A stretch of 55,930 nucleotides of DNA from the NCBI GenBank assembly GCA_001795535.1, contig MGPK01000061.1, positions 50,227 through 106,156 of the forward strand, in the 5' to 3' direction. Below are positions 5,767 through 43,408 of the stretch, one piece after another. The translations under genes were made by a program, and so were the position numbers. The stretch is from Deltaproteobacteria bacterium GWA2_54_12. GTDB lineage: Bacteria; Desulfobacterota; GWC2-55-46. The notes under the pieces were generated by a model, which worked only from the letters and a program-made list of their open reading frames with translations, was not told the origin of the DNA and searched no databases. How positions within the stretch are numbered: the stretch's first letter is position 1; every line of letters starts with the position of its first letter.

Positions 5767-5778
5767 TGGTTCATGACC

Positions 5779-7053: not shown

Positions 7054-7056
7054 ATG

Positions 7057-7773: not shown

Positions 7774-7779
7774 CCCGCG

Positions 7780-8892: not shown

Positions 8893-8895
8893 CGG

Positions 8896-9945: not shown

Positions 9946-9974
9946 TGCCACCTCCGGGAAAATATAAGCTGCTC

Positions 9975-10976: not shown

Positions 10977-10979
10977 CCG

Positions 10980-13198: not shown

Positions 13199-14721
13199 CA
13201 GACGGCCACCAGCTTCTTTCTGAGATAGAAGTACATGACCCCTGAGCAGAGTATCCCGGTGACGGATATTCCGGCCAGAAGGGATGCCATGGGCCAGGGC
13301 ACAAGCGCCCGAATGGCTGACATGAGGGCCAGCAGCACCGCCCCGGTGGCGGCCCACACGACCCCTGAACCTCGCATGTAGCTCAAAAAACGCATCTGAA
13401 CGATCTCCAGGCTCTTAGCGACTGCGTACCAGTTATTTGTAAGTACCTGCGCCACCATCGTCCCCAGCGCGACCCCCAGCAGGCCGAGCCACATTACGCC
13501 AATATAGGTAAGGACCAGGTTGATTACCCCGGCGAGCACCGCCATCTTTCCCCATACCGAGTCTGTGCCGGAGCTCTGGCCGAAACGGGCGAAAATAACA
13601 TGGTGATTCTCAAGGGTCAGCATGGCGCAGAAGACCCACAGGACTCCCCACCCGACGAAGTGCCCCTTGCCGAGCCAGAGCTGCATGATGTAATCGCCGA
13701 ATACCGCGAGTACTGACACGGCGGCGATCTGGATTATCATGCCCACTGTTGTATTGAGCATCAGCATGCGGTGGACCGCTGTGCGCTCTGCGGCCCCGCT
13801 CCTTCTTGAGATGAACGGCACGCACATCTGGGACACGGTCGAGGAAAAAACATAAAATACCTGAACAAGCCGGTAGGCAGCAGCGTAGTCCGGCAGGGCG
13901 GCGGTCCCCAGGAATTTCACGATGAAGTACTGGTCCGTGTTGAGTACAAGAAAACCGCCTAACCCGATTAAAAAGAAGTCCAGCGCCGGCCTCAGATGCG
14001 GCCTCACGTCACGCCAGGCGACCCTGACCCTTTCCCTGAAGGCCTTGTCAACGCGGCCGCGCACCAGAAACCCGAGCAGGATCGCGTTCAGGATATTGCG
14101 CCCGAGGACGACTATGGAGAGCACGACGATACCGCCCTGCCAGAGGTAAAGGGCCATGAAGTAGCCGAGAAGCGTCAATGACTGGACCGCAGCCTGGGCC
14201 CAGTTCTGCCAGCCCACCTCGCCGTGGCTGTTCAGGGCCGTCTCAAGGTATTTGAACCTGCACGTCACAGTCTGTGCCAGGCAGAATATCGCCCAGGCCT
14301 CAAGCGAAGAAGCCAGCAGCCCGTGGGGCAGCCCCAGCGCCCAGATAAAGAGACCTCCGGGCAGCAGCATGACGCACAGAAGTATCGACGAGGTTATATT
14401 TGATACATATCTGGAAAGGCTGAAGTAATAGGAAGCGCCGGTATGGTTCGGTCTCGCCTCCCTGTCGCCTTTTCCAAGTTCGAACGCCAGTTGACGGCCC
14501 AGGACCGGCGAGAAGCCCAGGTCCGCAAGATTGACGAAGAGCCCTGTCCCGAGAATGAACATCCATACGCCCAGCTCCTCTTGAGGCAGATACCTGAAAA
14601 AAAGGGGCATGGTCAGGACGCCAAGAGCGAGCGAAACCATCTGAGCTCCCCAGCCTGACATGATGCCGAACATTATCCTGTTCCGGAATATGCCCGGTAT
14701 CCTGCCGGCAGGCGCGCTCAT
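13198..14721 (-). CDS. Wzx-type oligosaccharide flippase
   Basis: A 507-residue, roughly 12-helix membrane protein of the polysaccharide transporter/MOP superfamily. The N-terminal FGIMSGWGAQMVSLALGVLT and PLFFRYLPQEELGVWMF are characteristic. It would flip lipid-linked repeat units to the periplasm for the O-antigen-ligase/polymerase encoded next. It overlaps both neighbours by ATGA-type junctions. Confidence 0.85.
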   Translation of the reverse strand: MSAPAGRIPGIFRNRIMFGIMSGWGAQMVSLALGVLTMPLFFRYLPQEELGVWMFILGTGLFVNLADLGFSPVLGRQLAFELGKGDREARPNHTGASYYFSLSRYVSNITSSILLCVMLLPGGLFIWALGLPHGLLASSLEAWAIFCLAQTVTCRFKYLETALNSHGEVGWQNWAQAAVQSLTLLGYFMALYLWQGGIVVLSIVVLGRNILNAILLGFLVRGRVDKAFRERVRVAWRDVRPHLRPALDFFLIGLGGFLVLNTDQYFIVKFLGTAALPDYAAAYRLVQVFYVFSSTVSQMCVPFISRRSGAAERTAVHRMLMLNTTVGMIIQIAAVSVLAVFGDYIMQLWLGKGHFVGWGVLWVFCAMLTLENHHVIFARFGQSSGTDSVWGKMAVLAGVINLVLTYIGVMWLGLLGVALGTMVAQVLTNNWYAVAKSLEIVQMRFLSYMRGSGVVWAATGAVLLALMSAIRALVPWPMASLLAGISVTGILCSGVMYFYLRKKLVAV

Positions 14722-15740
14722 CAGGGCTGCTTGGCCGCTTTGTTGCCATCCGCGAGAAATGTCTCGACGCTGGCCTTATCACGCAAGCCTTTGGCGTACA
14801 GGTCCGCCTCCTGCTTCGCCTTTTCAAAACGCAGGAGCTTTAATATCCTGTCCTTGACCTCCTCGTAGGACATGACAGTCGCGTTCTTCCTGTCCGTCAC
14901 CTTGAAGATATGGATGCCGTGGTCAGTCTCGATAAGCTCAGTTGTCTCTCCGGGCTTCAGGGCGAAGACTGCGCCCTCGAATTGCCTGTCTATCTGCCCG
15001 GGCCGCACATAGCCGATCTCCCCGCCGTTTGCCTTTGTTAGCCCGTCGGACTGCTCGCGTGCGATAGTGGCGAAGTCCTGGCCTTTCTTGAGGTTCTTCA
15101 GTATCTGCTCCGCCTTTTTGCGCGACTCCTGCTTGCGGGCTTTGTCCCATACCGGGTCGACCTGCACGAGGATATGGCTCAGTTTCGCCTGAAGCGGCTG
15201 CTTGAACTGGTCGAGGTTTCCCTCGTAATAGCCTATCATATCCCTGTCCGTGACCGTGACCTTCGGCACGAACTGGCGTTCGATGTATTGCTGGATGAGG
15301 TTGTTCCTCTCGACGCGGGCTCTGAGCGCCTCCTCAGACAGATTTCTCCTGGCCAGCTCGCCCAGATATTCGGCCTCGCTAACAAACTGCTTTTTGAGAG
15401 TCTCTATTTCCTTCAATACTGCGCTCTCATCAGGCTTGATGTCAGCCTTGCGGCTCTCCTGAAGGAGTATCTCCCGCCTTATCATGCTCTCAAGCACATC
15501 AGCGTTCACGGACGAGACCTGGCCCTGCGTGAGCGGCTTTCCGAAGCCGAGGATGGCCTTCTGCACGACAAGGACCTCGCCTTCGAATTCCGCCCTGTCT
15601 ATGGCCGCCCCGTTCACTGCCGCGACCCTGTCGGCTTTATCTGGAGCAGCGGCCAAAGCGTAATCAGGCGCTGATAAGGCCACGAGGCACACGAGCAGCG
15701 CCTTTATCCGGAACCCCGGTATTTTTTTTAAAGACATCAT
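14721..15740 (-). CDS. Periplasmic parvulin-type peptidyl-prolyl isomerase (SurA/PrsA/EpsD-like)
   Basis: A 339-residue protein. The signal peptide ends near LAAAPDKADR. A SurA_N-like chaperone helical region spans residues 40-180. A parvulin domain occupies about 185-285, with LSHILVQVDP, FATIAREQSDG, GGEIGYVRPGQ and HGIHIFKVTDR, which are the conserved parvulin strands. Such proteins fold outer-membrane or secreted proteins, and EpsD-family members occur in exosortase loci. It overlaps the coiled-coil gene upstream (tandem ATGATG) and the flippase downstream. It may serve the TPS/porin module, the EPS module, or both. Confidence 0.82.
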   Translation of the reverse strand: MMSLKKIPGFRIKALLVCLVALSAPDYALAAAPDKADRVAAVNGAAIDRAEFEGEVLVVQKAILGFGKPLTQGQVSSVNADVLESMIRREILLQESRKADIKPDESAVLKEIETLKKQFVSEAEYLGELARRNLSEEALRARVERNNLIQQYIERQFVPKVTVTDRDMIGYYEGNLDQFKQPLQAKLSHILVQVDPVWDKARKQESRKKAEQILKNLKKGQDFATIAREQSDGLTKANGGEIGYVRPGQIDRQFEGAVFALKPGETTELIETDHGIHIFKVTDRKNATVMSYEEVKDRILKLLRFEKAKQEADLYAKGLRDKASVETFLADGNKAAKQP

Positions 15741-16429
15741 CTCTCCCCCGCGCTCTTTTTGATTTTCAGCGAGTCTATCTCTTCCCTGTACTTCTTGACG
15801 AACTGCTCGAGCTCTACCCTCTTGAACTTGGTCAACGGCTCTTTTTCCATGATGACAGTCCCAAAGCCCTTATCGTTGTATTTTTTCACAAGCTCTTCTG
15901 CTATGACACAAAGCCTGGCGTTATCCGCGACGCTCTTATCAAGATTCTTGACTGTCTTCGCGAGCTCAGCATGAAGGTACTGTTTCTCAGAGCTTGTCTT
16001 TTTGAGCTTGTTATCTAACTCATTGCTGGCAGCTTCGAGTTCCTGTAGCGCCTTGCGCGCCCTCGCGAGCGCCTCGTCAGATTCCTTTTTGCCCCTGGCG
16101 GTTGTCTCCTCAGCTTCCTTGACTTTCACTCCGAGCGTCTTCGCAAGTTCCCTTGCTTTGAGCAGCTGGCCATGAGCGGCCATCTTCTCGCCTTCAAGCT
16201 TTTCCAGCTCCGCCTGGCATTGCTGTTCCATCAGCGCGGCCGTCTCGCTCTTCTCCTCTGACATCTTCCTTTTTACCGAGGCCATCTTCCTGTTCGCGTC
16301 CTTGAGCTTAACCTCAAAGGCCTTCTGCTCTTTTTTCACATTGGCATTTCCAACGCCAAGCCCAATAGCGAGACCTACCGCGAGGGCGACGACAGGCACT
16401 ATAAATTTTTTAAACCGTGATATCCCCAT
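15737..16429 (-). CDS. Membrane-anchored coiled-coil protein
   Basis: A 230-residue protein with one N-terminal membrane segment (FIVPVVALAVGLAIGLGVG). A long, highly charged helix of heptads then runs from residue 30 to about 175, rich in Lys, Glu and Ala. I recognise no family. GGAGG lies 7 nt before the ATG. It sits between a porin and a prolyl isomerase in an operon with TonB/ExbBD, so a periplasm-spanning scaffold is plausible but inferred. Its role is unknown. Confidence 0.7.
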   Translation of the reverse strand: MGISRFKKFIVPVVALAVGLAIGLGVGNANVKKEQKAFEVKLKDANRKMASVKRKMSEEKSETAALMEQQCQAELEKLEGEKMAAHGQLLKARELAKTLGVKVKEAEETTARGKKESDEALARARKALQELEAASNELDNKLKKTSSEKQYLHAELAKTVKNLDKSVADNARLCVIAEELVKKYNDKGFGTVIMEKEPLTKFKRVELEQFVKKYREEIDSLKIKKSAGER

Positions 16430-16444
16430 TCTCTTCCTCCGAGC

Positions 16445-18298
16445 CTAAAATCTTGCCGTTATGTCGGCCTGAAAGACATCGATCGCCAGAGGCGGCCCGC
16501 TTATCTCGTTAGTGGAAAGCCAGCGGAGAGTAAGCCATGAGTTTTTCGTGAAGGCGTAATCGGTCCCGACGACCCAGCCCTGCGCATTAGTGCCACCGAG
16601 ATGAAAGTCCGAATCGGTGAAAGCGTCCACTACAGCATCGCCCTCGAGGCGCTTGTAATTAAGGTACGCCTTCCACTGGCTGGCTTCCTTGATAGCGGGA
16701 TACCCCAGTGTCACTCCGAGCTGGTAGCCGGTTGTCTCTTCCGAAATATCTGGGTTCCCGTTCCTCTGCGAGACCTCTTCCTTGTCGAAGCCAAAGTTTT
16801 TCACGAAGTCGAAGAGGAACACGACATGGAACGGGTCCCAGAAGCCGATATCAAGGGCGCCAGTTAAGTTCAGTTCCTTGAAATCTGAGGCGAGCGCCAA
16901 TTTGTATTCGGACTGGCTCGCGGCCAGCGGATTGATATTGAATAGCGTATTTCCCTTCTGCATGAACAGCGGGGCAGTCCAGTCGTTGGCGCTGGGATAG
17001 AGCGGGTCGTTCATGACTCCAGTGATGTTGCTGAAATCATAGTAGGCCGCGCCGAGCCTGGCTCCCACGCCCTTGCTGTCTTTTCTTTCAAGCCCCAGCT
17101 GCCCGGCGACAAGCCATTTGCCGTCTGCGGACAGATCATACTGCTGCAAGGAGAAGGCCCCGGCGGTCATAAAGGCCGACCAGGGTCCTGAAACAGGTCT
17201 TTTCCCTGTAACAGCGAGTCCCTCGAAGGCCAGATCGCTGTCCCAGACAAGGTCGGTCGAAAACCAGGGGTTGGGCATGCGTCCGCCGTATACCGTGACC
17301 CAGTCCAGCGGCTTCCACTTGAGGTACGCGAGGTCGAGAACGATCGAGTCCTTGTTCAGGTAGTCGCTGAAGGTCGAGTTAGTGGAAACAGGGTTTGACG
17401 TGTTGCCTGTCGCGAGGCGAAGGTGGGCGTCGAGCCCATCGCTTACCCTTGCCTCGACCCCGAAGCGGACCCTGTACTTCAAATAGCTTTGATCTACAGT
17501 GGTATTCAGTGTCTCTCCGGGGTTTGACGGCTTGGCGAAAAGCTCGTTGCTATCGTTGAAGCGGTTGGCTTCATACCTGAGCCTTATATCGCCGCTGAGG
17601 CGAATGCGCCGTGTCCACTCCGGCATATCGAGCGGCGTAGCTTTTTCGCCTGAAAACCACTCGTTGACCGCGCTCCTGACCTGTTCTGGTATGCTTTTGC
17701 CGAACTCATCCCTGACGGTGGCCTCGATCTTTCCGGCCCGCTCGTCTTCCATCGCCCTCATCGCCCTGGGCAGCTCCTCTTTCAACTTGCTCTCGACCTC
17801 TTCGTCGAGGTCTTTCAGGAGCGCCTGTACAACACCTGCCTCGATCTTCTCGGTCTGCTCCTTTTTGACCGCGGCGCTCACTTCCCGTGGGAGTTGCTCT
17901 TTTATTTTCTTCTCGATCTCCTCGTAGATGCCCTTCATGATATCCTGGGCATCCGCAGCCGTTGGCTTCACGGTCCGCTCGCTTTCAGGTGCTTGAACAA
18001 CTGGCACCACGGTCCCGTTCTGCACGGGGACCAGAACGGCGTTTTCGGCTATCGTTACCTTTTTACTCTCCGGAATGACAACCTGGGCCGCCGCGGCCTG
18101 TACCTTCTGGTTTTGCTGGGCAGAGGCCTTCGCGTTTCTGGTCAGCGGCTTATCGTGCTTTATCGTCACTGGCTTGGGAACTCCCGCGCACCCGGCAAAA
18201 ACGAATACGAGTGGAAAGGCCGCAAGAAATATCTTCCTGAAACTCCTCTCCCTCCACACTCCGGCCTTCAATGGTATACAGCCTTCAAATCGGTTCAT
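16445..18298 (-). CDS. Putative outer-membrane porin with lipoprotein signal
   Basis: A 617-residue protein. The signal region ends in the lipobox VFAGC (Cys 37), suggesting a lipidated N-terminus. Residues about 100-230 are charged and helical (IEKKIKEQLPREVSAAVKKE and a related repeat DEEVESKLKEELPRAM), likely a periplasmic or oligomerising stalk. From about residue 235 the protein is beta-barrel-like with alternating aromatic strands (IRLSGDIRLRYEANRF, VRFGVEARVSDGLDAHLRL) and ends in ADITARF, whose terminal Phe is the BAM-recognised end. It resembles the PF16930 putative porins found beside ExbB/ExbD/TonB genes. I chose the ATG at 18298 because it gives a normal-length signal; in-frame starts at 18340 (ATG) and 18361 (TTG) exist. 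Confidence 0.75.
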   Translation of the reverse strand: MNRFEGCIPLKAGVWRERSFRKIFLAAFPLVFVFAGCAGVPKPVTIKHDKPLTRNAKASAQQNQKVQAAAAQVVIPESKKVTIAENAVLVPVQNGTVVPVVQAPESERTVKPTAADAQDIMKGIYEEIEKKIKEQLPREVSAAVKKEQTEKIEAGVVQALLKDLDEEVESKLKEELPRAMRAMEDERAGKIEATVRDEFGKSIPEQVRSAVNEWFSGEKATPLDMPEWTRRIRLSGDIRLRYEANRFNDSNELFAKPSNPGETLNTTVDQSYLKYRVRFGVEARVSDGLDAHLRLATGNTSNPVSTNSTFSDYLNKDSIVLDLAYLKWKPLDWVTVYGGRMPNPWFSTDLVWDSDLAFEGLAVTGKRPVSGPWSAFMTAGAFSLQQYDLSADGKWLVAGQLGLERKDSKGVGARLGAAYYDFSNITGVMNDPLYPSANDWTAPLFMQKGNTLFNINPLAASQSEYKLALASDFKELNLTGALDIGFWDPFHVVFLFDFVKNFGFDKEEVSQRNGNPDISEETTGYQLGVTLGYPAIKEASQWKAYLNYKRLEGDAVVDAFTDSDFHLGGTNAQGWVVGTDYAFTKNSWLTLRWLSTNEISGPPLAIDVFQADITARF

Positions 18299-18357
18299 AT
18301 ATGCTTCCCTGCCCTTCTTATCTCTGTTTTCAGGCGCCATCCGCCCCTGAGAGGGCG

Positions 18358-19059
18358 TCAACCCTTTGAAGTTATCCTGATGACCATCGTCCTTGGCATC
18401 CCGTCTGGCGGAGGCGAACTAATCTGCACTTTGCCTACGGAGTCCCTGACCGCCTCGTCGATCTTATGATCGCCTGATGAGCCGACTATCTTGAAATCGA
18501 CAACCGCGCCGTTCCCGTCCACGCTGACTCTTGCAATGACCTGGTGATTCCCCTTGGGGATGCCGCCCTCTTCATCGAGACGCTTCCTGACCTTTTTTCT
18601 GATTTCAGATTCGACTATCTGGGAATACTCGGCGAATCTGGTAAGCAGCGTAAGCTTTCCCAGGCCTCCGCCATCTCCAGCCAGAAGGCTTCTGCCGCCT
18701 TTTTTCCCGACAAGCCCGAAGGCGTCAGAGCCTGCCGCACCCTCGGCGTCAACGCCAAGCTTGTCCCCGGCCGGGGCGTCGTCCTGCTCCGCCGAAGGGG
18801 CTTCCGGCTCGGCCGCTTCCTGCTCAGGCGCGATGATCTCCTCTTTCTGGATTTCCTCGATCTTCGGCTCCGGCGGCTTTTCCACAGGAGGCGGCGGCGG
18901 GGGCTTCAGCAAAGTCACGACCGTAAAGGAATTCCTTTTCCGTGGACTTTTCTCTGACAGGACCGACTTCACGAAATAAACGCCCGCGCCGAGAACGGCC
19001 ACCATCACAATTACAAGGCCCCAGGGCACCTTGGATTTTCTGGCTTTATTTTCCGGCAT
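18358..19059 (-). CDS. tonB: TonB-family energy transducer
   Basis: A 233-residue protein. One N-terminal membrane helix (VPWGLVIVMVAVLGAGVYFV) is followed by a Pro-rich spacer (KPPPPPPVEKPPEPKIEE) and an acidic linker. A C-terminal TonB domain follows, with VIARVSVDGNGAVVDFKIVG and IDEAVRDSVGKVQISSPPPDG. It would transmit proton-motive force from ExbB/ExbD to an outer-membrane partner. No classical TonB-dependent receptor with a plug domain is encoded in the window, so the partner may be the adjacent porin or the TPS system. The ATG at 19059 is preferred; a GTG at 19086 overlaps the exbD stop. Confidence 0.85.
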   Translation of the reverse strand: MPENKARKSKVPWGLVIVMVAVLGAGVYFVKSVLSEKSPRKRNSFTVVTLLKPPPPPPVEKPPEPKIEEIQKEEIIAPEQEAAEPEAPSAEQDDAPAGDKLGVDAEGAAGSDAFGLVGKKGGRSLLAGDGGGLGKLTLLTRFAEYSQIVESEIRKKVRKRLDEEGGIPKGNHQVIARVSVDGNGAVVDFKIVGSSGDHKIDEAVRDSVGKVQISSPPPDGMPRTMVIRITSKG

Positions 19060-19082
19060 TTCCCGGCCCTTCCCCTGCGAGG

Positions 19083-19499
19083 TCACTTGACGAGCTTCTG
19101 CGTCACCAGCGCAAGCTGGGATATCTCGAGCCTCTGGAGCAGATCGAGGACTTCGATGACTCCCTTGTAGGCGATCTTCTCGTCTCCCCTCACAACGACA
19201 GGGAAATCCGGGTCAGCGGCCTTAAACTGCCGGAGCCTCTCTTCGAGTTCAGCCATAGTCACGGGGAAGCTGTCGAGATACATGGTGCCTTCGGCGGTTA
19301 TGGTGATGGCCTTCGTGGTTGACTTGACCTTGCCGACGGCGGCGCTCGCCTTCGGCAGGTTTACGCTTATGCCCTGCACCGAGGCCGTTACAACTATCAT
19401 GAAGACCAGCAGGAGGTTCCATGCCAGGTCAAGCATCGGCACGACATTTATATCCGTGTGCACCTCATGCTCGTCATAGGGGTTTTTCCTACGGCGCAT
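19083..19499 (-). CDS. exbD: ExbD/TolR biopolymer transport protein
   Basis: A 138-residue protein with the cytoplasmic N-terminus MRRRKNPYDEHEVHTDINVV. A single membrane helix carries PMLDLAWNLLLVFMIV, whose Asp is the proton-relay residue of ExbD/TolR. A periplasmic domain follows. It overlaps the exbB-like gene by 11 nt and the tonB frame by a GTGA junction, so the three are translationally coupled. Confidence 0.9.
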   Translation of the reverse strand: MRRRKNPYDEHEVHTDINVVPMLDLAWNLLLVFMIVVTASVQGISVNLPKASAAVGKVKSTTKAITITAEGTMYLDSFPVTMAELEERLRQFKAADPDFPVVVRGDEKIAYKGVIEVLDLLQRLEISQLALVTQKLVK

Positions 19500-21291
19500 C
19501 TGTCTTCACCTCTTCGAGCTTGAGTATAAAATCGTCGATGAAGACATTCAGGTCCGCGTTCATGTCCTTCATCTGCCCGGTCAGAAAACTGCTCGCGAAC
19601 AGGGCCGGTATCGCCACGACCAGGCCGGCCATGGTGCAGGCAAGCGCCGAGGCTACGCCGGGCGCTATCGCGGAAAGGTTCGCTTCCCCGCTTTCGGCAA
19701 GGCTGGCAAAGGTGTTCATGACGCCCCAGACAGTGCCGAGGAGTCCGAGGAAAGGCCCGCCAGCCACGCACATGTTCATGATGAACATGCCTGCCGACAG
19801 CCTCCTGCTCTGGTACATGGCCTCTTTTTCCACAGCGGCCCGAAAGCCGTTCATCGCCCTGTCGGAGAGGCCGTCGCCTTTCAGGAGCGTCTCGCCTTTT
19901 CTATTCAGCCATGCCTTGAGCTCCTCGCACCCGCTCCGGTAAACACCGTAAAACGATGACCCTTGGAAATCCGACTTTTTCTCAAAAAGCTCCATCGGGT
20001 CGTCAATGCGCTTGAAAGACTCGGAGAAGCTCTCATTTGTCTTTCTGGCCTCCCGCAGCATCGTGAACTTCTGTTTGAATACGAACGCCGCTAAAATACC
20101 CATGACCAGCAGGATGCCGATGATAAGCCATCCGTCAAGGGTAATGGTTTTCGCGATAACCTTCATCAGATGGATGGTGAGAGACTCTTCGCCCCCGCCG
20201 CCGGACTCTGCCTCCATGTAGGACACAAGCGACCCTTCAGACCCCTGGCTCTCGTACGCCTGTTTTATCCAGCTCGCCCCTCTGGCTGTGTTCGACAACT
20301 GGACTTCGTCTATGTCTCCCCGGAACGCGCCGGCGATGGTCATATCCCCGGCGGGAGCCGGGACAGTCCCGATGAACTTGTTCGAGGCGGCCTCAGTGCC
20401 GTCTATATAGACAGTGACGCGTTCCCCCGGGGCCACTGCGACTGCCAGATGGTGCCACTGTCCGGGCGTTAAGGCCGCGGTTTTTGGAGTGGTCATTGTC
20501 TGGCCGGAGATCAGACTCAGGTAAGGCTTCGCGTCGTCGATGCCGACGACAATGGACTGCTTCGCGTCTGCCCATGAAAACAGCTGCGAGTTGCCGGTTG
20601 CCTGGCCGGGGCGGACCCAGGCCGAGAAGGTGAATCCCTTGGAAAAATCGAGTGAGGCCGGGGCTGGAACCGTCATCTGCCCACCGGCCGCGCCAAAACT
20701 CGCGCCGTATCCGGCAACTGACGAGACGATATCTCCTGAAAAAGCGGACGCGTGGTTGCCGTAGGCTGTCGAGTCTTTGGGCGAGCCTTCCTCCTCACCG
20801 AAATGAAAGACCGCGATATGGTTCACGTCATAGGTGCCGCCGGAGTCCTGGCCTGACGCAGCCGAACTGTTCCCGTAATACATCCAGACATAATCTTTCT
20901 TATCCCCGCCGGTTATGTTGGGCGCCTTCACCCAGACGAGAGCTATCTCCTCTGAGGGGTCGAACTTCTCAATGTGGTACTTGAGCGGCGTCTTGTCATC
21001 GGCTGCAAGAAATCTCAGGTCAGAGCCGTCTTCATTCGCGTCCGGGAAGCTGAAGTTGCCGGTATGCAGGCGTATGAGCACCGGTATGTCAGCGAGGTTT
21101 TCACCTATATCCGCGCCTTCAGTCGAGGCGTCGAGATCAACCTGCATCCTCTGCTGCCATTTGCCGTCCCACCATGCGTGGGCTTCAGGGACAACCAGCA
21201 CAGCGATGATAAACGTCAGCGCTGCCACTACCGCCGGGATTCTGCTCATAAAACGCCAAACTGATAATTGGCCTCTCACTTCTTTTTTCAC
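19489..21291 (-). CDS. ExbB/TolQ proton channel fused to DUF2341 and LamG-like domains
   Basis: A 600-residue fusion. A signal peptide ends at AHA (residue 39). Residues about 40-150 resemble DUF2341 (WWDGKWQQRMQVDLD, YVWMYYGNSSAASG). Residues about 155-345 resemble a LamG/concanavalin-like lectin fold (FTFSAWVRPGQ, GQWHHLAVAVAPGERVTVYI). A membrane helix at 387-405 precedes the MotA/TolQ/ExbB core at about 430-590, with GGPFLGLLGTVWGVMNTF and the ASALACTMAGLVVAIPAL helix. The channel core would use proton flow with ExbD, while a carbohydrate-binding-like region lies in the periplasm. The GTG at 21291 follows AGGAGG at 13 nt, slightly far; an ATG at 21249 is the alternative. Confidence 0.85.
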   Translation of the reverse strand: MKKEVRGQLSVWRFMSRIPAVVAALTFIIAVLVVPEAHAWWDGKWQQRMQVDLDASTEGADIGENLADIPVLIRLHTGNFSFPDANEDGSDLRFLAADDKTPLKYHIEKFDPSEEIALVWVKAPNITGGDKKDYVWMYYGNSSAASGQDSGGTYDVNHIAVFHFGEEEGSPKDSTAYGNHASAFSGDIVSSVAGYGASFGAAGGQMTVPAPASLDFSKGFTFSAWVRPGQATGNSQLFSWADAKQSIVVGIDDAKPYLSLISGQTMTTPKTAALTPGQWHHLAVAVAPGERVTVYIDGTEAASNKFIGTVPAPAGDMTIAGAFRGDIDEVQLSNTARGASWIKQAYESQGSEGSLVSYMEAESGGGGEESLTIHLMKVIAKTITLDGWLIIGILLVMGILAAFVFKQKFTMLREARKTNESFSESFKRIDDPMELFEKKSDFQGSSFYGVYRSGCEELKAWLNRKGETLLKGDGLSDRAMNGFRAAVEKEAMYQSRRLSAGMFIMNMCVAGGPFLGLLGTVWGVMNTFASLAESGEANLSAIAPGVASALACTMAGLVVAIPALFASSFLTGQMKDMNADLNVFIDDFILKLEEVKTDAP

Positions 21292-21309
21292 GGTATTCTT
21301 TGATCCTCC

Positions 21310-24300: not shown

Positions 24301-27300
24301 GACCCATCCTTCAGAGGAACTCAACACGGCCTTACCGCCGTCAGAGCTTACACTGCCTCCGGAGTTGATGTTCAAGCCGTTCATTGCGTAAAGCTCAACC
24401 GCGCTGTCCGCGCCGCCAACGGCGTTGACCTCACCGAACACATCAATGCGCCCGGACTGTCTGTCGTCAACGCCGAGCTTGACGCGCCGAGCGTTCAGGG
24501 ATTTTCCGGCGGCGATGATTATGTCGCCTGCCCGGGCCCGAAGGCCAATCGATTCGGTGAAGCCGCCTGAGGCGAGCTTGCCCGCGAGCCACGCGATGTC
24601 AGATTCTGAAAGCTGCTTCGAATCAATGGCAAAAGACCCGCCAGAGCCGCCTTGAGCCGCGCCACGGAGCTCCCCGCCAAGGGTTACGCCTCCCTTTGGA
24701 GCGCTGAGGGAGACCTCTCCTGCGTCGCCCTGTTCTCCGGCTGAAACATCTATCAAAGCCCCGTCTTCCATCACAAGGCTGCCGTTGCCCGCATCCATAG
24801 TGACCTTGCCGCCTGGGGCTGATTCAGTTCCCCTTGAGAACACCTGGCCACCGCTGCTGAGGAATATTCCGTCATCCTTCCCGTCGCCGGTAGTTGTAAA
24901 CTTGACTGTTCCGCCATTCGCCTCGACAACGCCGGACAGGTCCATCGTTTTCGCTTTGAATTCGAGAATTCCGCCCGGAACGGAAGACGCGCCAGAATCT
25001 CCCTCGCTCCTGGAGATGCTCAAGGCATTTGCGCCCGCGTCTACAAGGAAGTTCGCGGCTACATACCTTGCCGCGCCTGCGTCAGCGGCCGCGGCCACCC
25101 TTGCCGCCTTGATATTCAGGTCCGCGCTGCCGCTTTTGAGCGAACCGACCCCAGTAAATTTAAGGTCGTTCACCGCGATCAGGTTGAGCGTGGAGAAGCC
25201 GTCAAAAAGAATATCCCCGCACCCGATCGTGATGGTGCCGCCGTTGATGGTCATCACGCTGTCATTGGCAATGAGTTGTCCAGTGGCGGCGGCCCTGGAG
25301 TTGGAAAGGCCGATCAAAGGCGCCGAGACCGATACCACGGCCTTATCCTTCCCGGAGGCTATCCTCGCGGCGTCTATGGAAATACTTCTTAGCGAAGAAA
25401 GCGCGAAGTCGTCCATGAACAGCACATCAGAGCCGCTCACGATCTCTATTTCTTCAAAAGAGGCGTACCTGTCCCAGGCGCTTTTGGTGATGAACGCGCC
25501 GGGGCCCGTGCGCGTGTAGCTCTCCGGGACAAAATAGACCGCCTCTCCGCTCAGCCTCAACGCGCTGTTGTCATGCTTGATCTCCCCCTGGATGTCCTGC
25601 TCCTTCGTGTTGAAGTTAACGGCGTGAGAGGCATGGAGCACAGAGCCTTCCCGAACGACCGCTGTCCCTGTCTGCGAGTTCAGGCTTATCTCGCCTATCC
25701 CGCTCTCCGTGATGGCACTCAGAGTCGCGCCGGACTCGATCGTAATGGTCTTTCCCGCAGTAAGCGAGATGACCGGAGCTTCCAGCGTAGCCCCTTTCAT
25801 TACGGTCACTGTCTCGGTCAACCCCTCGCTGCCGAGGTTTATCTCCTGCAATCCCTTCAGGGTCTCCGCGGCCACGCTCAACTTGCCGATGAACTCTTGA
25901 ATCTCCGGCGTTAAATCGAGGGCAGTATCAAAGCTGAAGTCAGCTGGCAGCTGAGCGACCTCAGGACGCGCGAGGATATCCTTCGCGCTCAGGTTCATCT
26001 TTCCGCCAAGGTACCCATTGAGCGCTGCCGCGAGTATCCTGCCGTTCAGGATGGCAGTATTGCCCTTGACGGTCAGTTCCCCGGCGTCCCCCATGGTCAT
26101 GGTCTTTTTGGTGAAGTTCCCCTGCTTGAGGACTTCAGTTGCATTCATGACTGAATAAGCCTTTGGCCTCGCGCCGCGGATATCGGTCCCTGCCACAGTC
26201 GTGAAACCGGCGATGACCGGGTGGCCGTCCCTGCTAGAGAGCTTCTGACCGGCGGCTATGTTGATATTCTGCTCCTCAAGAACGACGGCTCCAGGCAGGA
26301 AGGCGTATTCGGATGGCAGGATGGAATATTCACCCGCGCTCAAACCGCCACCTTCTTCCAGGTAAACAGAGCTGCCCGGCAACTGGACAGAACGGTCGCT
26401 CATGACAACCAGACGGTTGCCCTTGGTCAGAGGGTCAACCGAACCCTCGACTCCCGGCTGGAACAGGTACGAAAAGACCGCCCCCCCGCCTGAGATGTCT
26501 ATCGTCGCCCCGTCGCGGGCGATAACCTCTGGGGCGTCGATCGTGACGGACCCGGCGGTCATCTCCATGGGCTCGTACGCGTGCGTGAGCTTGTCTTTTA
26601 TGATCCACTCGCCGTCCTCGTTAATCTCTCCGAGTTTGACCGAGGCGTTCCCGGCAATGGTCACCACGCCTCCGTCTCCGAGGTAGACGCGGCTGTCGGG
26701 ACCTGTGCCCTTGAGGGCGGCCGAGCCCATGGGAGCGGCCAGCGTGCCGAGGACCTCAATCCCTTTCCGTGCTTCTACCTTAAGGCTGCCTGCGGCGGAA
26801 TAGATCGGGCCGCCAACAGGCGCGCTGGCCGGAAGTACGCTCACCTTGCCTGAAGTGGACCTGATCGTATAATCAGAGCGGACCGTTGGATATACGCGGT
26901 CTGCCTTGAGGAGAAGGTCGCCGGCAACGGCCAGCTGCCCGGCCCAGGCCTTGGCCTCTGAGTCGTACCTGTCGGTAAGCCGCATATCGCGGCCAGATTC
27001 GAGGCGGACATCCCTGAAGCCGCTCAAGTTGACTTTTCCGGTGACATCGAACCAGCCCGTGCTCGAAAAGGTAAGCTTCCCTTCGCCAGGCGTTGCCGAT
27101 CCGCCTTCCTTACTATTTGTTGTATTCGATAGAGTTATCCACGGCGACCTCAAGGTTATGCTTTCCTGCCCGCTGCCGGCTATCTCGAGCGCATCGAGGG
27201 TAAGACTGCGTCCTAAAGTCTCATCCATGCTGCCGCTGAACAAGAGGGTCCTGGCGCTTCTGAGCGTCAGGTCGTCAAAACCGGCCTCGACGATCTTTTC

Positions 27301-30300
27301 AATATCCTCGGCACCGACCTCCATAGTCCCCATCTTGTCCGTGCTGCTCACGGTAAGGGCTGCGCCCCGGAGCCCGGCCAGCTTCTTTTCAGCCTGGAAA
27401 CTGCCGTCAAGGGTGAGGCTGCCTGAATAGGAAAGGGAAAGGGTCCCCGGAGCGCCTGCTTCGGTATAGGTGATGACCCTTCCAGCCGACAAGACCTTGT
27501 TCCTTACAGGGTCGGACCCGGAGATGTCTACGAGAGAGCCGCTCTCCAGAAGGATATTGCCGCTGGTCGCCGTCAGCGTAACCTTTCCAGCGTCCATGGG
27601 CGTATGATTGTGAGAAAAGCCGGGTATCACCTGTTTGAGTTCAGGACGGTTGTAGCCCTTGGCCAGTATCTGTCCGCTTTCCTTGATGACCAGGTCTGAA
27701 TATTCTCCTGTGCCTGCGGTGAGGTTTATCTCCCCTGCCGGAGCCTCAAGTGTGCCGCCCATTGTCAAAGCGCCAGCCGCGCTCAGGACGATCTTTCCTT
27801 GCGGGTTCATTCTTACCTGAGCACCCTCGGATACTGACAACCCCGCGCTGCTGTTGGCTGCGACAATATTTTTATCCTGCCACTGAAACATCTTCCCTGC
27901 TTCAGCCTTGAAGAATGTTTGTCCGGCCTGGAAGGCCATATCAGAGCTGAGGCGGATGAGGTCATCGCGGCCCGGCAAGGCCTCTATCGTCATGCCCGGG
28001 ACGCTCCCGGGCAAGTTGCCGCGCCGGAGTACCTCTGGTATGGGCGTCTTGAGCCTCACAAGGGAGGGGCTGATCTTGACGGATTGGCCGATATTGACGC
28101 CGTTGAAGCTGTTCACCTCTATCCTGGTAAAGCCGGTATCAGCGAAACGGTCCCCGGCAATGACAAGCTTGCCCTTCAGTTCATCCGGCACCGGCGTGCC
28201 AGCGGCGAAGTCGACGGGCCATACGGCAGTCTCATTGACGATCTCTACATTGCCTGCATGGAGGATTATCTCCCCTCCCTTTATCTTCCCCTGGCTGTCG
28301 GGGAGCGCATAGCCACGGAGGTCGCCGTCGAGCCTGATCGACTCTCCCCTTATTGCCAGGGTACCGGCGTTGCCTCCGGTTATCTTCCTTTTAGTGTCGA
28401 TCTGGTAGCCGCCGCTGACATCGAGGACAGCGCCGTCCTGTATGAATACGCCATTGTTTTTGGGAACGGTCTCATCATGGAGGGTTATGCTGCCACCCTG
28501 GACCTGCCCTGAGGTCATCGCCGCGCCGGAGATTTTTCCTGCGGCCGAGTTGTCGACCCTTTCCCCTGAAACGTCAAGACGGCTCCCCCGTGACAGGAAG
28601 ACCCCTTCTGAAGCCGCGCCGCCAGCGGCAGTCAGAGTGATCGCGCCTGAGCGCGCGATGACCTCGCCGGAGTGCTCGATAAACCCGGCCCTGGCTTCAA
28701 AAACGCCGCCGGCTACCAGGTCGATCCTGGTGTTGCTTTCAGTCGCTATTTTCTTGTCAGCGTAGAGTTTCAAGGTCCCCAGACCGGCCTTGTTAAGGAC
28801 ATCAGCCGATATTACGGTCCGCTGTCCGGTCAATTCCGTATCTGGGCCGAAGCCCTCAGGCAAAGGCGATATTTCCCGTGCCACTGTGATTGCTGAATCT
28901 CCTCCTGAACCCGAATAAAGATTCATCACAAGCGTTCCGGCTTCAGGCGCCTCGGTCCCCCTGGCCACGGAAAGCTCCCTGGCCGCCTCGTCATTCAATG
29001 TCCTTCTGGTCTGAAAAAAACCCCTGGTCGCGGATGCTTTGATCTGTCCGTCGAATACGGCCGCTTTCGCATTGAGCGTGAGAGTGCCCGCGTTGCCGCC
29101 CTTTGTGTAGCCAGTCATGGCGCCCTTGAGCGGCGTTGCTCCGCCGTAATAGACGCCCGTGTACCTGTCAGTTACTCCGAACTTCTCGTGCGTCCTCTCG
29201 TAGCTCCCCATTATCCCATCATATTTCAGGTCAGCTGGTGCGTTGCTGATATCGTAGATCTTCGCACCCGAAACCAGCTTTGTCGTGTCGAGAAAACCTT
29301 TGCTGTAGCGTACTGCGCCGCCTGATATGTCAATGACAGAGCCCTGTTTGGCTATTATCTGTTCGGCGGTAATGGTTATCAGTCCGCCGTTCATGGCTTT
29401 TTCCAGCGCTGTTTTCTGCCCGGTAAGGAGCGCTCCGGAGATATCTCCGATGGAAGAGCCTGTGAGTGCGTTAGCGGTTACGGCCTCCCCCTTCAGAACG
29501 CCGTCCTTCTGCGAGTACGCATCCCTGAGCTCCACGCTGTTGAGCGTTGCGTCAACCGCGTTTTTTGAAGCTGACTCGTCGCTCCAGACGCCGCCAGCGT
29601 TGACGCGGCTGCCTGTTTCAAGAAAAACCCGCTCTCTGGCGTCAATCGTAATCACCCCTGACGGCGCGGCTATGGAACCTCTGTGTTCCACGACGGCTGG
29701 CGGCGTGCCGGTTGAGACACTCTGTATCCCGTCCTTGTCTCCAAGAACCGTCTGCAGTCCGCCAATCCAGACCTTTCCGCCGGAGAAGACAAACGAGTTG
29801 TCTACCTTTTCGGACGAAACCGACACGGGCGACTCTGTTACGCTGTCCTCGCCCGTGCTTATCCTGTCGGTCGCGCGCAACTCGATATTGCCGTTCTGCT
29901 TGACGGCGGTCACCGCGCGTATGAGCCCTTCCTGGTTCACGACGCGGCCGTACATCCCGACCCAGCCGAAGTCCGAGGACATCCTTGCGCCTTCACTGTT
30001 CCATGCCTCGCCAAGGCCGTTTTTCAGGTTGACTATGAGCCCTTCCCTCTCGTTTCCCTTAGGCGGGTTGAGGAGTTCCAGCTCAGTTGCCGCCGCAAGG
30101 CCTATCTGCCCCAGCGGGGCATCTATTACGCCGTAGTTTTCCACATGGGGGCCGAGGAGGAAGACATAGCCTCCGCTGCCGGCCCTTATCTCGCCGTGGT
30201 TGGAGACAACGGCGTCGGGGGTATACGCCAGTTCAACGTCAAGATTGAACTTCAGGAGATTGTCCATGAAGTCGCTGTCCCTGAGGTTCATGGCGGAGGC

Positions 30301-30762
30301 GATAAAGCTGTTGACATTGACCTTCGAGCCGGGCCCGAAAAATATCCCGTTCTGGTTTATGAGATAGACATGACCATCGGCCGTAAGCTGGCCGAAGATC
30401 AGGCTGGGGTTGCCGTCATATATGCGGTTCAATATCTTCCAGCCCTTGTTGCCCTGCTGGTCGAAATGAACGCTGGCATCCGCTCCGACATTGAATGAAT
30501 CATATTCGGCGACGGCATGAGAGGCGTTCTGATGAATTACGAGCCGACTGGGCGATTCGGTAATCGACGAAATACCACTCAGCACTCCGGACGGCTTCAT
30601 AACAGGCAGCATCGCCGGAGGCGGAGGCTGGACTATCGGCCTTTGAAATCCGGGGATGTTGACCGGGGCCGCCTGTCCCGGGGTATGCGCGAGGAAAGAG
30701 CCGCAGATGGTCAATACCAGTATTTCCCGGACTATGCGTTTTTTATAATTTCTTCTCGCCAT
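21310..30762 (-). CDS. Filamentous-haemagglutinin-type TpsA exoprotein
   Basis: A 3150-residue protein. It has an extended signal peptide (about 1-32) and a TPS secretion domain (about 50-280) with HVYLINQNGIFFGPGSKVNV, a variant of the conserved NPNGI motif at 136-140. Beyond it lie thousands of residues of Gly/Ser/Asn-rich beta-helix repeats (GGDITINAGRDLLLN-like). The C-terminal roughly 500 residues resemble the haemagglutinin DUF3739 region (GPGALLVQAGGSIDLGNSDG). Secreted by the TpsB encoded just upstream, it would be a surface or released adhesin. ATG at 30762 is 2 nt after the tpsB stop and lacks a clear ribosome site, so it is probably translated by coupling. There is no PEP-CTERM tail. 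Confidence 0.9.
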   Translation of the reverse strand: MARRNYKKRIVREILVLTICGSFLAHTPGQAAPVNIPGFQRPIVQPPPPAMLPVMKPSGVLSGISSITESPSRLVIHQNASHAVAEYDSFNVGADASVHFDQQGNKGWKILNRIYDGNPSLIFGQLTADGHVYLINQNGIFFGPGSKVNVNSFIASAMNLRDSDFMDNLLKFNLDVELAYTPDAVVSNHGEIRAGSGGYVFLLGPHVENYGVIDAPLGQIGLAAATELELLNPPKGNEREGLIVNLKNGLGEAWNSEGARMSSDFGWVGMYGRVVNQEGLIRAVTAVKQNGNIELRATDRISTGEDSVTESPVSVSSEKVDNSFVFSGGKVWIGGLQTVLGDKDGIQSVSTGTPPAVVEHRGSIAAPSGVITIDARERVFLETGSRVNAGGVWSDESASKNAVDATLNSVELRDAYSQKDGVLKGEAVTANALTGSSIGDISGALLTGQKTALEKAMNGGLITITAEQIIAKQGSVIDISGGAVRYSKGFLDTTKLVSGAKIYDISNAPADLKYDGIMGSYERTHEKFGVTDRYTGVYYGGATPLKGAMTGYTKGGNAGTLTLNAKAAVFDGQIKASATRGFFQTRRTLNDEAARELSVARGTEAPEAGTLVMNLYSGSGGDSAITVAREISPLPEGFGPDTELTGQRTVISADVLNKAGLGTLKLYADKKIATESNTRIDLVAGGVFEARAGFIEHSGEVIARSGAITLTAAGGAASEGVFLSRGSRLDVSGERVDNSAAGKISGAAMTSGQVQGGSITLHDETVPKNNGVFIQDGAVLDVSGGYQIDTKRKITGGNAGTLAIRGESIRLDGDLRGYALPDSQGKIKGGEIILHAGNVEIVNETAVWPVDFAAGTPVPDELKGKLVIAGDRFADTGFTRIEVNSFNGVNIGQSVKISPSLVRLKTPIPEVLRRGNLPGSVPGMTIEALPGRDDLIRLSSDMAFQAGQTFFKAEAGKMFQWQDKNIVAANSSAGLSVSEGAQVRMNPQGKIVLSAAGALTMGGTLEAPAGEINLTAGTGEYSDLVIKESGQILAKGYNRPELKQVIPGFSHNHTPMDAGKVTLTATSGNILLESGSLVDISGSDPVRNKVLSAGRVITYTEAGAPGTLSLSYSGSLTLDGSFQAEKKLAGLRGAALTVSSTDKMGTMEVGAEDIEKIVEAGFDDLTLRSARTLLFSGSMDETLGRSLTLDALEIAGSGQESITLRSPWITLSNTTNSKEGGSATPGEGKLTFSSTGWFDVTGKVNLSGFRDVRLESGRDMRLTDRYDSEAKAWAGQLAVAGDLLLKADRVYPTVRSDYTIRSTSGKVSVLPASAPVGGPIYSAAGSLKVEARKGIEVLGTLAAPMGSAALKGTGPDSRVYLGDGGVVTIAGNASVKLGEINEDGEWIIKDKLTHAYEPMEMTAGSVTIDAPEVIARDGATIDISGGGAVFSYLFQPGVEGSVDPLTKGNRLVVMSDRSVQLPGSSVYLEEGGGLSAGEYSILPSEYAFLPGAVVLEEQNINIAAGQKLSSRDGHPVIAGFTTVAGTDIRGARPKAYSVMNATEVLKQGNFTKKTMTMGDAGELTVKGNTAILNGRILAAALNGYLGGKMNLSAKDILARPEVAQLPADFSFDTALDLTPEIQEFIGKLSVAAETLKGLQEINLGSEGLTETVTVMKGATLEAPVISLTAGKTITIESGATLSAITESGIGEISLNSQTGTAVVREGSVLHASHAVNFNTKEQDIQGEIKHDNSALRLSGEAVYFVPESYTRTGPGAFITKSAWDRYASFEEIEIVSGSDVLFMDDFALSSLRSISIDAARIASGKDKAVVSVSAPLIGLSNSRAAATGQLIANDSVMTINGGTITIGCGDILFDGFSTLNLIAVNDLKFTGVGSLKSGSADLNIKAARVAAAADAGAARYVAANFLVDAGANALSISRSEGDSGASSVPGGILEFKAKTMDLSGVVEANGGTVKFTTTGDGKDDGIFLSSGGQVFSRGTESAPGGKVTMDAGNGSLVMEDGALIDVSAGEQGDAGEVSLSAPKGGVTLGGELRGAAQGGSGGSFAIDSKQLSESDIAWLAGKLASGGFTESIGLRARAGDIIIAAGKSLNARRVKLGVDDRQSGRIDVFGEVNAVGGADSAVELYAMNGLNINSGGSVSSDGGKAVLSSSEGWVNVNSGGTVDMAGAGEARGTLWLRAGRDGNDIKINLDGTIAGASAVYAEAVKTYSYTAPVFSAGGYYTAWLNDAAYYYDANTAIERLKDSTGGASFHLLPGIEVVNSGDININAKMDLTDYRFGGEPGVLTFRAGENLNVKSDIVDHPRQFAAEGMNSWGINLVAGADGAADYMSTVRGKGNLSFDAARVVYTESAPIRFASGNDTTLRAGSNPDYMINNKFYFTMGSYSGAINGSAGNDLIVNGGAIQTATGDITINAGRDLLLNTSGSLGSIRTTGHYPSGVTQYQNYAGGGDIVLNVGRTLAGKNSGGVYVTANNGNAWDALIYSYRIGKFTDVTIGANYAAKPTEGLAAMGGGSLKVRTGSDFMAQAGTFGSGDLIIHAGGDIKGRFMNKNGLAEIHAMGNLGAVDEFITEQVIEAHDSRINASAQGFIGLGAVLNPTVTHAKALEKQQWKLTYAGATSLSLRAGGDVTIEGASEYATSASDFARILPATVEVEADGDILLNNQFALAPSSTGGLRLSAGGDIEGHAIFLSDIDPAGVYGVRFSNITGSYPNLFSTNPAHDAVFVEAAGEHIPLHGKDETAVELRAGRDITGLSLYLPKKADISAGRDIKDIYYFGQNIAASDVSKVRSGRDISFGYGSTKTLGFRQAGPGALLVQAGGSIDLGNSDGVQSKGNEYNPALDSRGSSVLVAAGYSRDLTFTDATSFFDGLRAAIKDHGSYEGQYSAARDIISVLGPPSGDGNIDMTRSQISTNYGKSDIFILASGRVNVGKSTLISEKARQKTGIFTAEGGGINIFAAGDIDVNESRVITFFGGDISVWSDSGDINAGRGSKTQINAEAHTYVWDPDKGDRGEWVIKFEPPAVGSGIRAVTYDPDGLVGPREAPLEGDSYLHARMIDAGEAGVSGRNIFIGAQQVANAANISATVGSVVGMPQAASGAVGLGSLSGAGAAAAGTSQLSQNAAAMASNQANASQLVEDIITKWLDVKVIDFVQDE

Positions 30763-30764
30763 TG

Positions 30765-32369: not shown

Positions 32370-33245
32370 CTACTCTCCCGCGACTGCATTCGCAGGCTTT
32401 GCTTCCGCGACCTTGTCCTTCGTGATCTTTTCCACAGCCACCTCGCAGCTCAATGGCTCGCCTCCGAACGGGTGTCTGTAGTCTATGGTGATTGACTTCT
32501 CGTCAACCGCTTCGATTCGGCCGACAAAGGGGCCGGAGCGGACAAGCTCGCCTGCTTTAGCGTCTATCTCTATCTCATAGGCCTTTTCGTTTTCCCGAAT
32601 GCGTCCCTTGCCGAACGGAGTCTCAACACTCTGTCCGTCTTTGGCTGAAAACAGAATAACGGCTTCGTCTCCTTCAACCCTGTCAACCCTGCCCGGCACG
32701 GTCGGGTCGAGAACAAAAGGCTCGCCGGCCACCGGCTTCTTGCCGGTGCGGTACTCATAATCGGCGACGGTCATCTTCGTCTCCTTCAGCCGCTCGCGGA
32801 CCCTTGCTATCTTTATGCTGTAGTCCTCCTTGCTCCTCTCGGGCAGGTTTTCAGACGTAAGCTTCAACTCTCGGCTCTCTCCCTCTTTCATGCCGACAAC
32901 CGCCACCGCCAACCGGTCGACTATCTCCCACTCAAAAGCCTTTTCCTTGCCTTCAAGCTGCACCGGCACAGAAACAGCCGCCTTGACAGGTAAAAGGCCA
33001 TCCTGGCCTCTTTCCATGTATACGGCAGACTTAGGCGACTTCACCTTCTCCGCCATGGCTTTGTCAGACGCCGCGGCAACATCGCCGTTCGCAAGCCTGC
33101 ATACAAAATTGATCTCGGCTATGTCGCCAGGCTCAACTGCCACAGCCTCTGCGGACGCGCTCCAGGCCGTTGCCGGAAGGAGCAGGAAAGCCGCGACAAG
33201 GGCCTTTTTTATCTTTTCAGTCATCGAAGTTCCATGTCTTTTCAT
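32370..33245 (-). CDS. Periplasmic FKBP/SlyD-like peptidyl-prolyl isomerase
   Basis: A 291-residue protein with a signal peptide (ALVAAFLLLPATAWSASA). The region VEPGDIAEINFVCRLANGD looks like the first strands of an FKBP fold, and the C-terminal VDEKSITIDYRHPFGGEPLSCEVAVEKI matches the closing SlyD/FKBP strand. An unusually long middle (about 60-200) is unassigned. It is expected to help fold exported proteins and directly precedes tpsB, so assisting TpsB or TpsA biogenesis is inferred. AAGGAG and GAGG lie upstream of the ATG at 33245. A second isomerase (14721) lies at the other end of this module. Confidence 0.75.
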   Translation of the reverse strand: MKRHGTSMTEKIKKALVAAFLLLPATAWSASAEAVAVEPGDIAEINFVCRLANGDVAAASDKAMAEKVKSPKSAVYMERGQDGLLPVKAAVSVPVQLEGKEKAFEWEIVDRLAVAVVGMKEGESRELKLTSENLPERSKEDYSIKIARVRERLKETKMTVADYEYRTGKKPVAGEPFVLDPTVPGRVDRVEGDEAVILFSAKDGQSVETPFGKGRIRENEKAYEIEIDAKAGELVRSGPFVGRIEAVDEKSITIDYRHPFGGEPLSCEVAVEKITKDKVAEAKPANAVAGE

Positions 33246-33469: not shown

Positions 33470-33517
33470 ATTTTATGCCATAGCTACTGTTAAGAAATTA
33501 TGACAGCCATGTTTTAA
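33470..33517 (-). promoter_or_regulatory. Pho-box-like promoter at head of the TPS/EPS directon
   Basis: On the minus strand three 7-nt half-sites, TTAAAAC, CTGTCAT and TCTTAAC, are each separated by 4 nt (11-bp period). A -10-like GCATAA follows after 10 nt, or TAAAAT after 13 nt. The middle and last half-sites with their spacer differ at one position from the site before the phosphate porin at 54898. E. coli PhoB binds direct repeats of CTGTCAT with the same geometry. Inferred: PhoB activates the directon starting at 33438. Confidence 0.65.
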
Positions 33518-35767: not shown

Positions 35768-35768
35768 C

Positions 35769-42723: not shown

Positions 42724-42953
42724 CTTTCCCGCAGCCCCTTCATTTAAAAAAAGCCGTAGCGTTCTACAAAGCGGCTCCATCCCGGCAGAAAGGCTTTAAA
42801 TACGCTCTGACGCGGTAATTTAGCTTTTTTTTGTGAAGGGAATATTACAAATATATAGAGATTCGGCAACTTGAGCCTCCGTCCCGGAAAAGGCCGGAGA
42901 ACTGAAACGCAATAACCATGACCACATGCGCTATTAAAGACGCGCGCCATTCC

Positions 42954-43363: not shown

Positions 43364-43408
43364 TTTTAACTGGCCTGCAATACTCCCTTAACAGGGAAGG
43401 TCTAATAT
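43364..43408 (+). promoter_or_regulatory. Pho-box-like promoter upstream of structured element
   Basis: Three half-sites TTTTAAC, CTGCAAT and CCTTAAC have 4-nt spacers; 10 nt later comes -10 TAATAT (43403-43408). It is one of the best sites in the window. The predicted transcript starts near 43415 and runs into the hairpin element at 43457 and on to the GT4 gene at 43728. Confidence 0.6.

Follow-up and report, generated by a model that had tools for sequence, protein, structure and literature searches.

Gene content of the locus

We analyzed a 55,930-nucleotide stretch of DNA, referred to here as the window, from Deltaproteobacteria bacterium GWA2_54_12 (assembly GCA_001795535.1, contig MGPK01000061.1, positions 50,227 to 106,156 of the forward strand), which carries a two-partner secretion (TPS) pair in an operon with genes for an ExbB/ExbD/TonB motor. 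According to the list of open reading frames (ORFs) and Pfam searches, nine minus-strand genes span positions 33245 to 14721 in the order tpsB–tpsA–exbB (with DUF2341 and LamG domains)–exbD–tonB–Porin_5–coiled-coil–ppiC, with a gene for a weakly FKBP-like protein in first place (Table 1). All the genes that a preliminary description of this DNA had placed in one operon, namely the TPS pair, ExbB/ExbD/TonB, the porin, the coiled-coil protein and PpiC, were therefore recovered, and in order. Neighboring genes overlap by 1-11 nt or are separated by gaps of at most 18 nt, so that the operon looks like one transcription unit. The same description had announced two prolyl isomerases; the parvulin-type PpiC is clear, whereas the FKBP match of P0001 is below threshold and Pfam gave no match for this protein. 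A Geobacter protein encoded at the same operon position aligns, through its N-terminal half, with P0001 (37% identity); downstream of the aligned part it carries a true FKBP_C domain followed by a thioredoxin domain, and from the sequence of P0001 an FKBP-type assignment appears plausible but weak. No family was assigned to the coiled-coil protein in Pfam and NCBIfam scans, and the small ORF ahead of the nine genes had no Pfam match.

Table 1. Features of the operon and its upstream region in the window
Feature	Position	Strand	Basis or remark
PhoR/PhoB-type histidine kinase and response regulator, upstream	34742..36464	-	Pfam; candidate regulator
Pho-box-like promoter element CTGTCATAATTTCTTAACA	33488..33506	-	1 mismatch to porin-O/P-PstS promoter pattern
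Small ORF, 58 aa	33262..33438	-	First ORF after the Pho box; sequence
FKBP-like periplasmic protein (P0001), weak assignment	32370..33245	-	NCBIfam E 1e-4, below cut-off
TpsB outer-membrane transporter, without H1 plug helix	30765..32369	-	Pfam POTRA_2/ShlB; AlphaFold2; Foldseek to CdiB/FhaC
TpsA adhesin of 3150 aa with TPS domain, DUF3739, linker rich in A, S and Q, and C-terminal strand peptide WLDVKVIDF	21310..30762	-	
ExbB-type channel with N-terminal DUF2341 and LamG	19489..21291	-	Pfam DUF2341, Laminin_G_3, MotA_ExbB
ExbD	19083..19499	-	Pfam ExbD
TonB: TonB_2-type C-terminal domain and Gly-rich linker	18358..19086	-	Pfam above cut-off
Porin_5 barrel, plug-less, with long helical periplasmic segment and lipobox-like N-terminus	16445..18361	-	PF16930 E 6e-130; AlphaFold2
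Coiled-coil protein, conserved after porin	15737..16429	-	In 64/67 relatives with enough flank
PpiC/SurA-like prolyl isomerase	14721..15740	-	Pfam Rotamase E 2e-28, SurA_N_3

Co-occurrence of the TPS pair and the motor

The preliminary description had named rare co-occurrence of the two sub-modules in other genomes as the observation that would speak against it, and we made this comparison; such rarity was not seen. Among 348 evenly drawn Pseudomonadota genomes, a DUF3739-bearing TpsA was encoded in 14, one of them being the chosen center of the sample, and a full-length DUF2341-ExbB was encoded in the same 14 and in no others; the remaining 34 matches to the ExbB profile were short TolQ/ExbB alignments scoring about 150 bits. 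For the 13 non-center genomes, a simple calculation that ignores shared ancestry gives a probability near 1e-23 for such identity under independence. Some of these pairs lie on different contigs and adjacency alone therefore does not produce the co-occurrence. Within 78 genomes comprising that of the window and its kin, either marker exceeded its cut-off in the window genome only. DUF3739 was present in 14/14 module genomes tested, one of which, a Bradyrhizobiaceae metagenome-assembled genome (MAG; G086, the genome of locus L086), has 17 TpsA matches, and the TpsB clade of the module was found in 30/30 module genomes searched.

Linkage was followed in 80 named genome loci from Nitrospirota, Geobacter, Desulfobacterota, alpha-, beta- and gammaproteobacteria and a few others, where long antisense frames in high-GC loci were regarded as spurious and ignored. 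Wherever the flank allowed, the module contained ExbD (78/78), TonB (74/74), the porin (69/70) and the coiled-coil protein (64/67). Methylovulum and Methylosinus are examples of non-pathogenic environmental bacteria with the module. A TPS gene was detected within 10 kb in 65 of 74 loci, and in several others the upstream ORFs, of 1,700-3,300 aa, are truncated. Similarly, the 11 plasmid records with a full-length DUF2341-ExbB are the same 11 that have strong Porin_5 matches, their gene order being tpsB-exbB-exbD-tonB-porin-unknown-YbjN-PpiC or close to it; the viral contigs searched gave no match. Pairwise divergences of TpsB, ExbB, TonB, porin and coiled-coil protein are correlated at 0.92-0.97, and that of TpsB with those of TonB, porin and coiled-coil protein at 0.93-0.96. 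Co-occurrence, linkage and joint divergence of TpsB and TonB thus strongly support, at the level of sequence, the earlier proposal that the TPS pair and ExbB/ExbD/TonB work as a single machine, which may serve secretion, surface release or uptake.

Downstream of the module in relatives, 121 neighboring genes are diverse, with EPS (exopolysaccharide)-export families recurring in four, and no general phosphate enrichment was found there. Two plasmid loci deviate in their architecture: that of Aquabacterium (L032, 21649-22465) has two consecutive exbD genes, and that of Methylomagnum (L027/L039) has the module in pieces over 40 kb among PhoX, alkaline phosphatase and RiPP (ribosomally synthesized and post-translationally modified peptide) genes, with PhoU nearby.

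TpsB lacks the plug helix and TpsA ends in a conserved peptide

Pfam, AlphaFold2 and Foldseek agree that TpsB consists of two POTRA domains and an Omp85-type barrel, with CdiB and FhaC as the top Foldseek matches of its model. The TPS domain of TpsA (PF05860, E 2.6e-23, plus adhes_NPXG) matches the structures of EtpA and HxuA, and both partners are accordingly those of a type Vb system. In FhaC-type transporters the pore is plugged by the helix H1, which is typical of type Vb secretion, if not essential to it. In the AlphaFold2 model of TpsB, residues 17-38 are non-helical except for 3 residues, at low confidence, and POTRA1 starts at residue 41; related TpsBs have A/P-rich linkers at their N-termini in place of H1.

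Toward its C-terminus, TpsA shows DUF3739, a low-complexity linker of 50-60 residues and a conserved peptide with the pattern P-S-[FWIV]-[LI]-[TS]-V-[ED]-V-[ILV]-G-[FY]-G, which in the window protein corresponds to KWLDVKVIDF near its end. This tail peptide is present in 66 of 68 rows of the aligned module TpsA tails and is also readable in the inspected TpsA copies encoded in trans. A second motif of the C-terminus, VxVLGxGxLT, is shared by 7 of the 9 genuine tails from loci with VreA, ECF (extracytoplasmic function) sigma factor and FecR genes and in 0 of 58 elsewhere, one further row of the table being a spurious frame that was not counted. This correlation, seen in sequences, is confounded by ancestry. 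The VreA-like proteins carry an STN domain and a borderline TonB_2 domain. In the tails of L030, L035, L036, L084, L095 and L110, all of them VreA/ECF/FecR loci, the second motif reads VxVLGxGxLT...ER.

The motor and its porin

As in other ExbB-ExbD-TonB energizers, the ExbB, ExbD and TonB_2 domains are encoded together, all with Pfam scores above cut-offs. Residues 372-593 of ExbB align with TolQ/ExbB structures, and its DUF2341 and LamG part presumably lies in the periplasm; DUF2341 appendages on ExbB-type channels are of unknown function (PMC12505986). The scores of ExbB and ExbD against TolQ/TolR models were at least equal to those against ExbB/ExbD models. A Gly-rich linker ahead of the TonB C-terminal domain is conserved in an alignment of 87 sequences, and a sequence search of the PDB with TonB gave no match. 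In the window ORFs covered by the Pfam scans there was neither TolB nor Pal, and no VreA, ECF sigma factor or FecR gene.

As the preliminary description had read from the letters, the porin is a barrel with a periplasmic stalk: the AlphaFold2 model shows a plug-less barrel and a long helical periplasmic part, the latter at low to moderate confidence, and its closest fold in the PDB is OmpM1. The supposed lack of a plug-bearing TonB receptor held as well, with no Plug domain among the window ORFs scanned or in the whole window genome; because this genome is 80% complete, the absence is suggestive only. In each of 25 other module genomes searched, at least one Plug domain was found.

A probable phosphate-starvation setting

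Three features had escaped the preliminary description: the TpsA tail peptide, a putative phosphate-starvation promoter and a PstS-like neighbor in relatives. In order to replace a partly circular pattern, a Pho-box pattern was derived from two porin-O/P-PstS promoters only (55023-55041 and C1:73589). With up to 3 mismatches it matched 5 sites in 2.08 Mb, compared to 0 for a reversed-pattern control, and the best match after the two source sites was the element upstream of the operon, which points to a possible control by PhoB in this organism. Weak Pho-like boxes seen ahead of TpsB in six further genomes are not claimed. A PstS-like gene adjoins tpsB in 20 of 25 relatives' loci examined. About half of the PstS-like genes scanned exceed or come close to the PF12849 cut-off, and the others rest on a profile built for this analysis; several proteins known only by the latter show an R..GSGT loop.

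The operon lies beside a phosphate-starvation island (34742-55866) that holds the PhoR/PhoB pair, Ppx/GppA, a SixA-like phosphatase, PhoH, diacylglycerol kinase, PAP2, monogalactosyldiacylglycerol synthase, zinc-dependent phospholipase C, a response regulator, PstS, phosphate-selective porin O/P and a histidine kinase. The PhoB homologue of the pair is encoded at 35769-36464. Within the island, further Pho-box-like sites precede the SixA/Ppx block (42832-42850, minus strand) and the glycosyltransferase/PhoH genes (43375-43393, plus strand), and two adjacent thymidylate-kinase-like genes, possibly polyphosphate-related, lie between the Ppx/GppA and SixA-like genes (40765-42202, minus strand). 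A near-identical paralogous cluster of porin O/P, PstS and response regulator with the same promoter box is found at L126 (G000:C1:66000-84000).

Comparison with known systems

The linkage of TPS and TonB genes is not new: a 2009 paper described it in P. aeruginosa and several further species (PMC2729926). In P. aeruginosa, phdA-pdtB-exbB2D2-tonB4-PA0696-0701 form one transcription unit (PMC2729926, PMC7035377, PMC4971064), and exbB2-exbD2-tonB4 were still called uncharacterized in 2020 (PMC7035377). This PUMA3/Pdt locus (pdtA, phdA, pdtB, exbB2, exbD2, tonB4, PA0696-PA0701) shares the order tpsB-exbB-exbD-tonB-porin-unknown-(YbjN)-PpiC, with pdtB, exbB2, exbD2, tonB4, PA0696 and PA0699 in matching succession, and the Klebsiella and Burkholderia loci used for comparison have this order too. 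In contrast, the window has tpsA between tpsB and exbB and the FKBP-like gene first, lacks VreAIR and YbjN genes and runs into EPS genes. PhoB binds the P. aeruginosa promoters (PMC4971064), whereas for the window operon a Pho box is known from its sequence match. What we add is the conserved tail peptide behind a flexible linker, a TpsB without H1, the lack of a plug domain in the window genome, the Pho box of the operon and the PstS-like gene beside tpsB in relatives.

With the classical TPS systems FhaC/FHA, CdiB/CdiA and HxuB/HxuA the window pair shares the TPS domain, two POTRAs and the Omp85-type barrel, but it lacks the H1 plug helix and has a dedicated ExbBD-TonB, a C-terminal DUF3739 and a strand peptide. 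The hemopexin system HxuCBA links a TPS pair to TonB via the receptor HxuC, whereas the window has a motor and no receptor. Use of ExbB/ExbD/TonB for protein secretion, as proposed below, is known from the Oar-TonB export of PopC in Myxococcus (PMC6434023); however, Oar is a plug-bearing TonB-dependent transporter, and none was found in the window locus or genome. Among solved structures, the attachment porin OmpM1 of Veillonella comes closest in fold to the Porin_5 barrel, but no peptidoglycan-binding SLH domain was identified in the window porin, whose periplasmic part is of low confidence. From Tol-Pal the window differs in that scans found neither TolB nor Pal.

A possible role of TonB in TpsA export

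The co-occurrence, the single motor for many TpsAs, the tail peptide and the lack of a plug receptor lead us to favor, with about an even chance of being right, a TonB-coupled and phosphate-starvation-induced variant of type Vb secretion, with the motor working on the export of TpsA or on its surface state. TonB would then touch TpsA or TpsB, and energy use would be directed toward export. In such a mechanism, PhoB would turn on the operon in phosphate starvation along with phosphate porin and PstS genes, prolyl isomerases such as the SurA-like PpiC would keep TpsA export-competent, and TpsB, with its two POTRAs and no H1, would export this long beta-helical adhesin. ExbB/ExbD would use proton flow to move the dedicated TonB, and the partner of TonB would most likely be the TpsA export complex and not a siderophore-type receptor. 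The likeliest handle would be the conserved peptide near the TpsA C-terminus, which is carried on a flexible linker and would leave the periplasm last; a pull on this peptide would complete, hold or release export, while the coiled-coil protein and the OmpM-like porin, which has periplasmic helices, may brace or gate the outer membrane at the export site. The specific version, that TonB grips the C-terminal peptide, that the proton motive force completes, holds or releases TpsA and that VreA reads the second peptide where present, we put forward only tentatively. Precedents exist in the TonB-powered export of PopC through Oar (PMC6434023) and in the TonB-like FusB, which directly touches its substrate (PMC7593965).

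Several observations weigh against a role of the motor in export. The PstS-like and phosphate-porin neighbors fit uptake as well. The likeness of the tail peptide to the TonB boxes of known receptors is a putative one, judged by eye. In the open-access literature, we found no experiment, whatever the species, that connects TonB with the export of TpsA. Reconstituted TPS export has worked with no energy added, as covered in a 2017 review (PMC5422565). Also, an insertion mutant of the P. aeruginosa tonB homologue (PA0695) had no zebrafish virulence phenotype, and neither had tpsA and tpsB mutants (PMC2729926).

The main rival is uptake, which we consider conceivable if rather doubtful: TpsA would capture a phosphorus ligand (mineral, nucleic acid or phosphoester polymer), TonB would drive import via Porin_5 and the PstS-like protein would collect the phosphate on the periplasmic side. 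Such a role would suit the Pho-box promoter, the frequent PstS-like gene beside tpsB (20/25 loci), the wealth of phosphate-starvation genes in the window and the PhoB control of the P. aeruginosa homologue (PMC4971064), but the porin model is plug-less and resembles general or attachment porins, downstream genes in relatives are not phosphate-specific, and one motor serving 17 different TpsAs in one module genome argues for export rather than for uptake of one ligand. That ExbBD-TonB, the OmpM-like porin and the coiled coil instead tie the membranes together in a Tol-Pal-like brace, anchoring a huge adhesin whose export is unpowered, seems unlikely to us. The attachment porin OmpM1 as closest fold, the long periplasmic helices and the good fit of ExbB/ExbD to TolQ/TolR models are in line with a brace; however, the TonB domain is a TonB_2 and not full-length TolA, and the conserved TpsA peptide would be left unexplained.

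Signaling, in which the TonB complex senses TpsA export and informs a VreA/FecR/ECF switch while transport proceeds without energy, could account for the confinement of the second TpsA motif to VreA/ECF/FecR loci and for the STN and TonB-like domains of VreA (PMC2729926). As most loci, including the window, lack these genes yet retain the motor, and the motif correlation may stem from shared ancestry, we judge it very improbable. For an operon of chance or convenience, joining neighboring sub-modules with unrelated roles, no supporting point was found, and the identical presence in 14 of 348 genomes together with the linkage in nearly all 80 loci contradicts it to the point where it can be practically discounted.

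The 2017 review (PMC5422565), in passages that do not treat TonB-linked TPS loci, names as an open question by what means TPS proteins pass the outer membrane when no energy source is at hand. The DUF3739-marked TPS class, in the sampled genomes, is never without its own proton-driven motor, which reduces the question of powered TPS export to a deletion test. If TonB does pull on TpsA, this would be the first proton-powered type V secretion. The present data place the exbB2-exbD2-tonB4-PA0696 genes of P. aeruginosa in a context that spans phyla and in a phosphate-starvation setting, and they define a peptide that can be mutated.

Origin of the contigs and flanking genes

The window genome bin includes a second module copy, L005 on contig C71, with frame breaks in tpsA and tpsB. 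The tetranucleotide profile of C71 correlates at 0.5-0.63 with the window and other contigs and at 0.85-0.89 with Nitrospirota loci. The contig is therefore probably foreign to the bin, and L005 was treated as the locus of a second organism and not as another paralogue of the window genome. Contamination was judged unlikely for the window contig itself, given that its three parts match contigs C1, C17 and C32 at 0.88-0.96 and that C1 has a near-identical PstS/porin paralogue. Genus relatives lack the PhoH found in the window, and this protein shares 57-60% identity with copies in Nitrospirota MAGs, a distribution that makes horizontal transfer of the region possible.

At 14721 the ppiC gene overlaps a flippase gene, which suggests that the unit continues into the latter and the EPS genes. 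This EPS cluster (493-14721, minus strand) encodes glycosyltransferases, the flippase, a polymerase-like protein and two radical SAM/SPASM proteins and is probably co-transcribed with the TPS-TonB genes. On the other side of the operon, a putative secreted protein with a PEP-CTERM-like tail (VPVPAPVFLLGSGLAALALLRRK) at its end is encoded at 33649-34362 on the minus strand.

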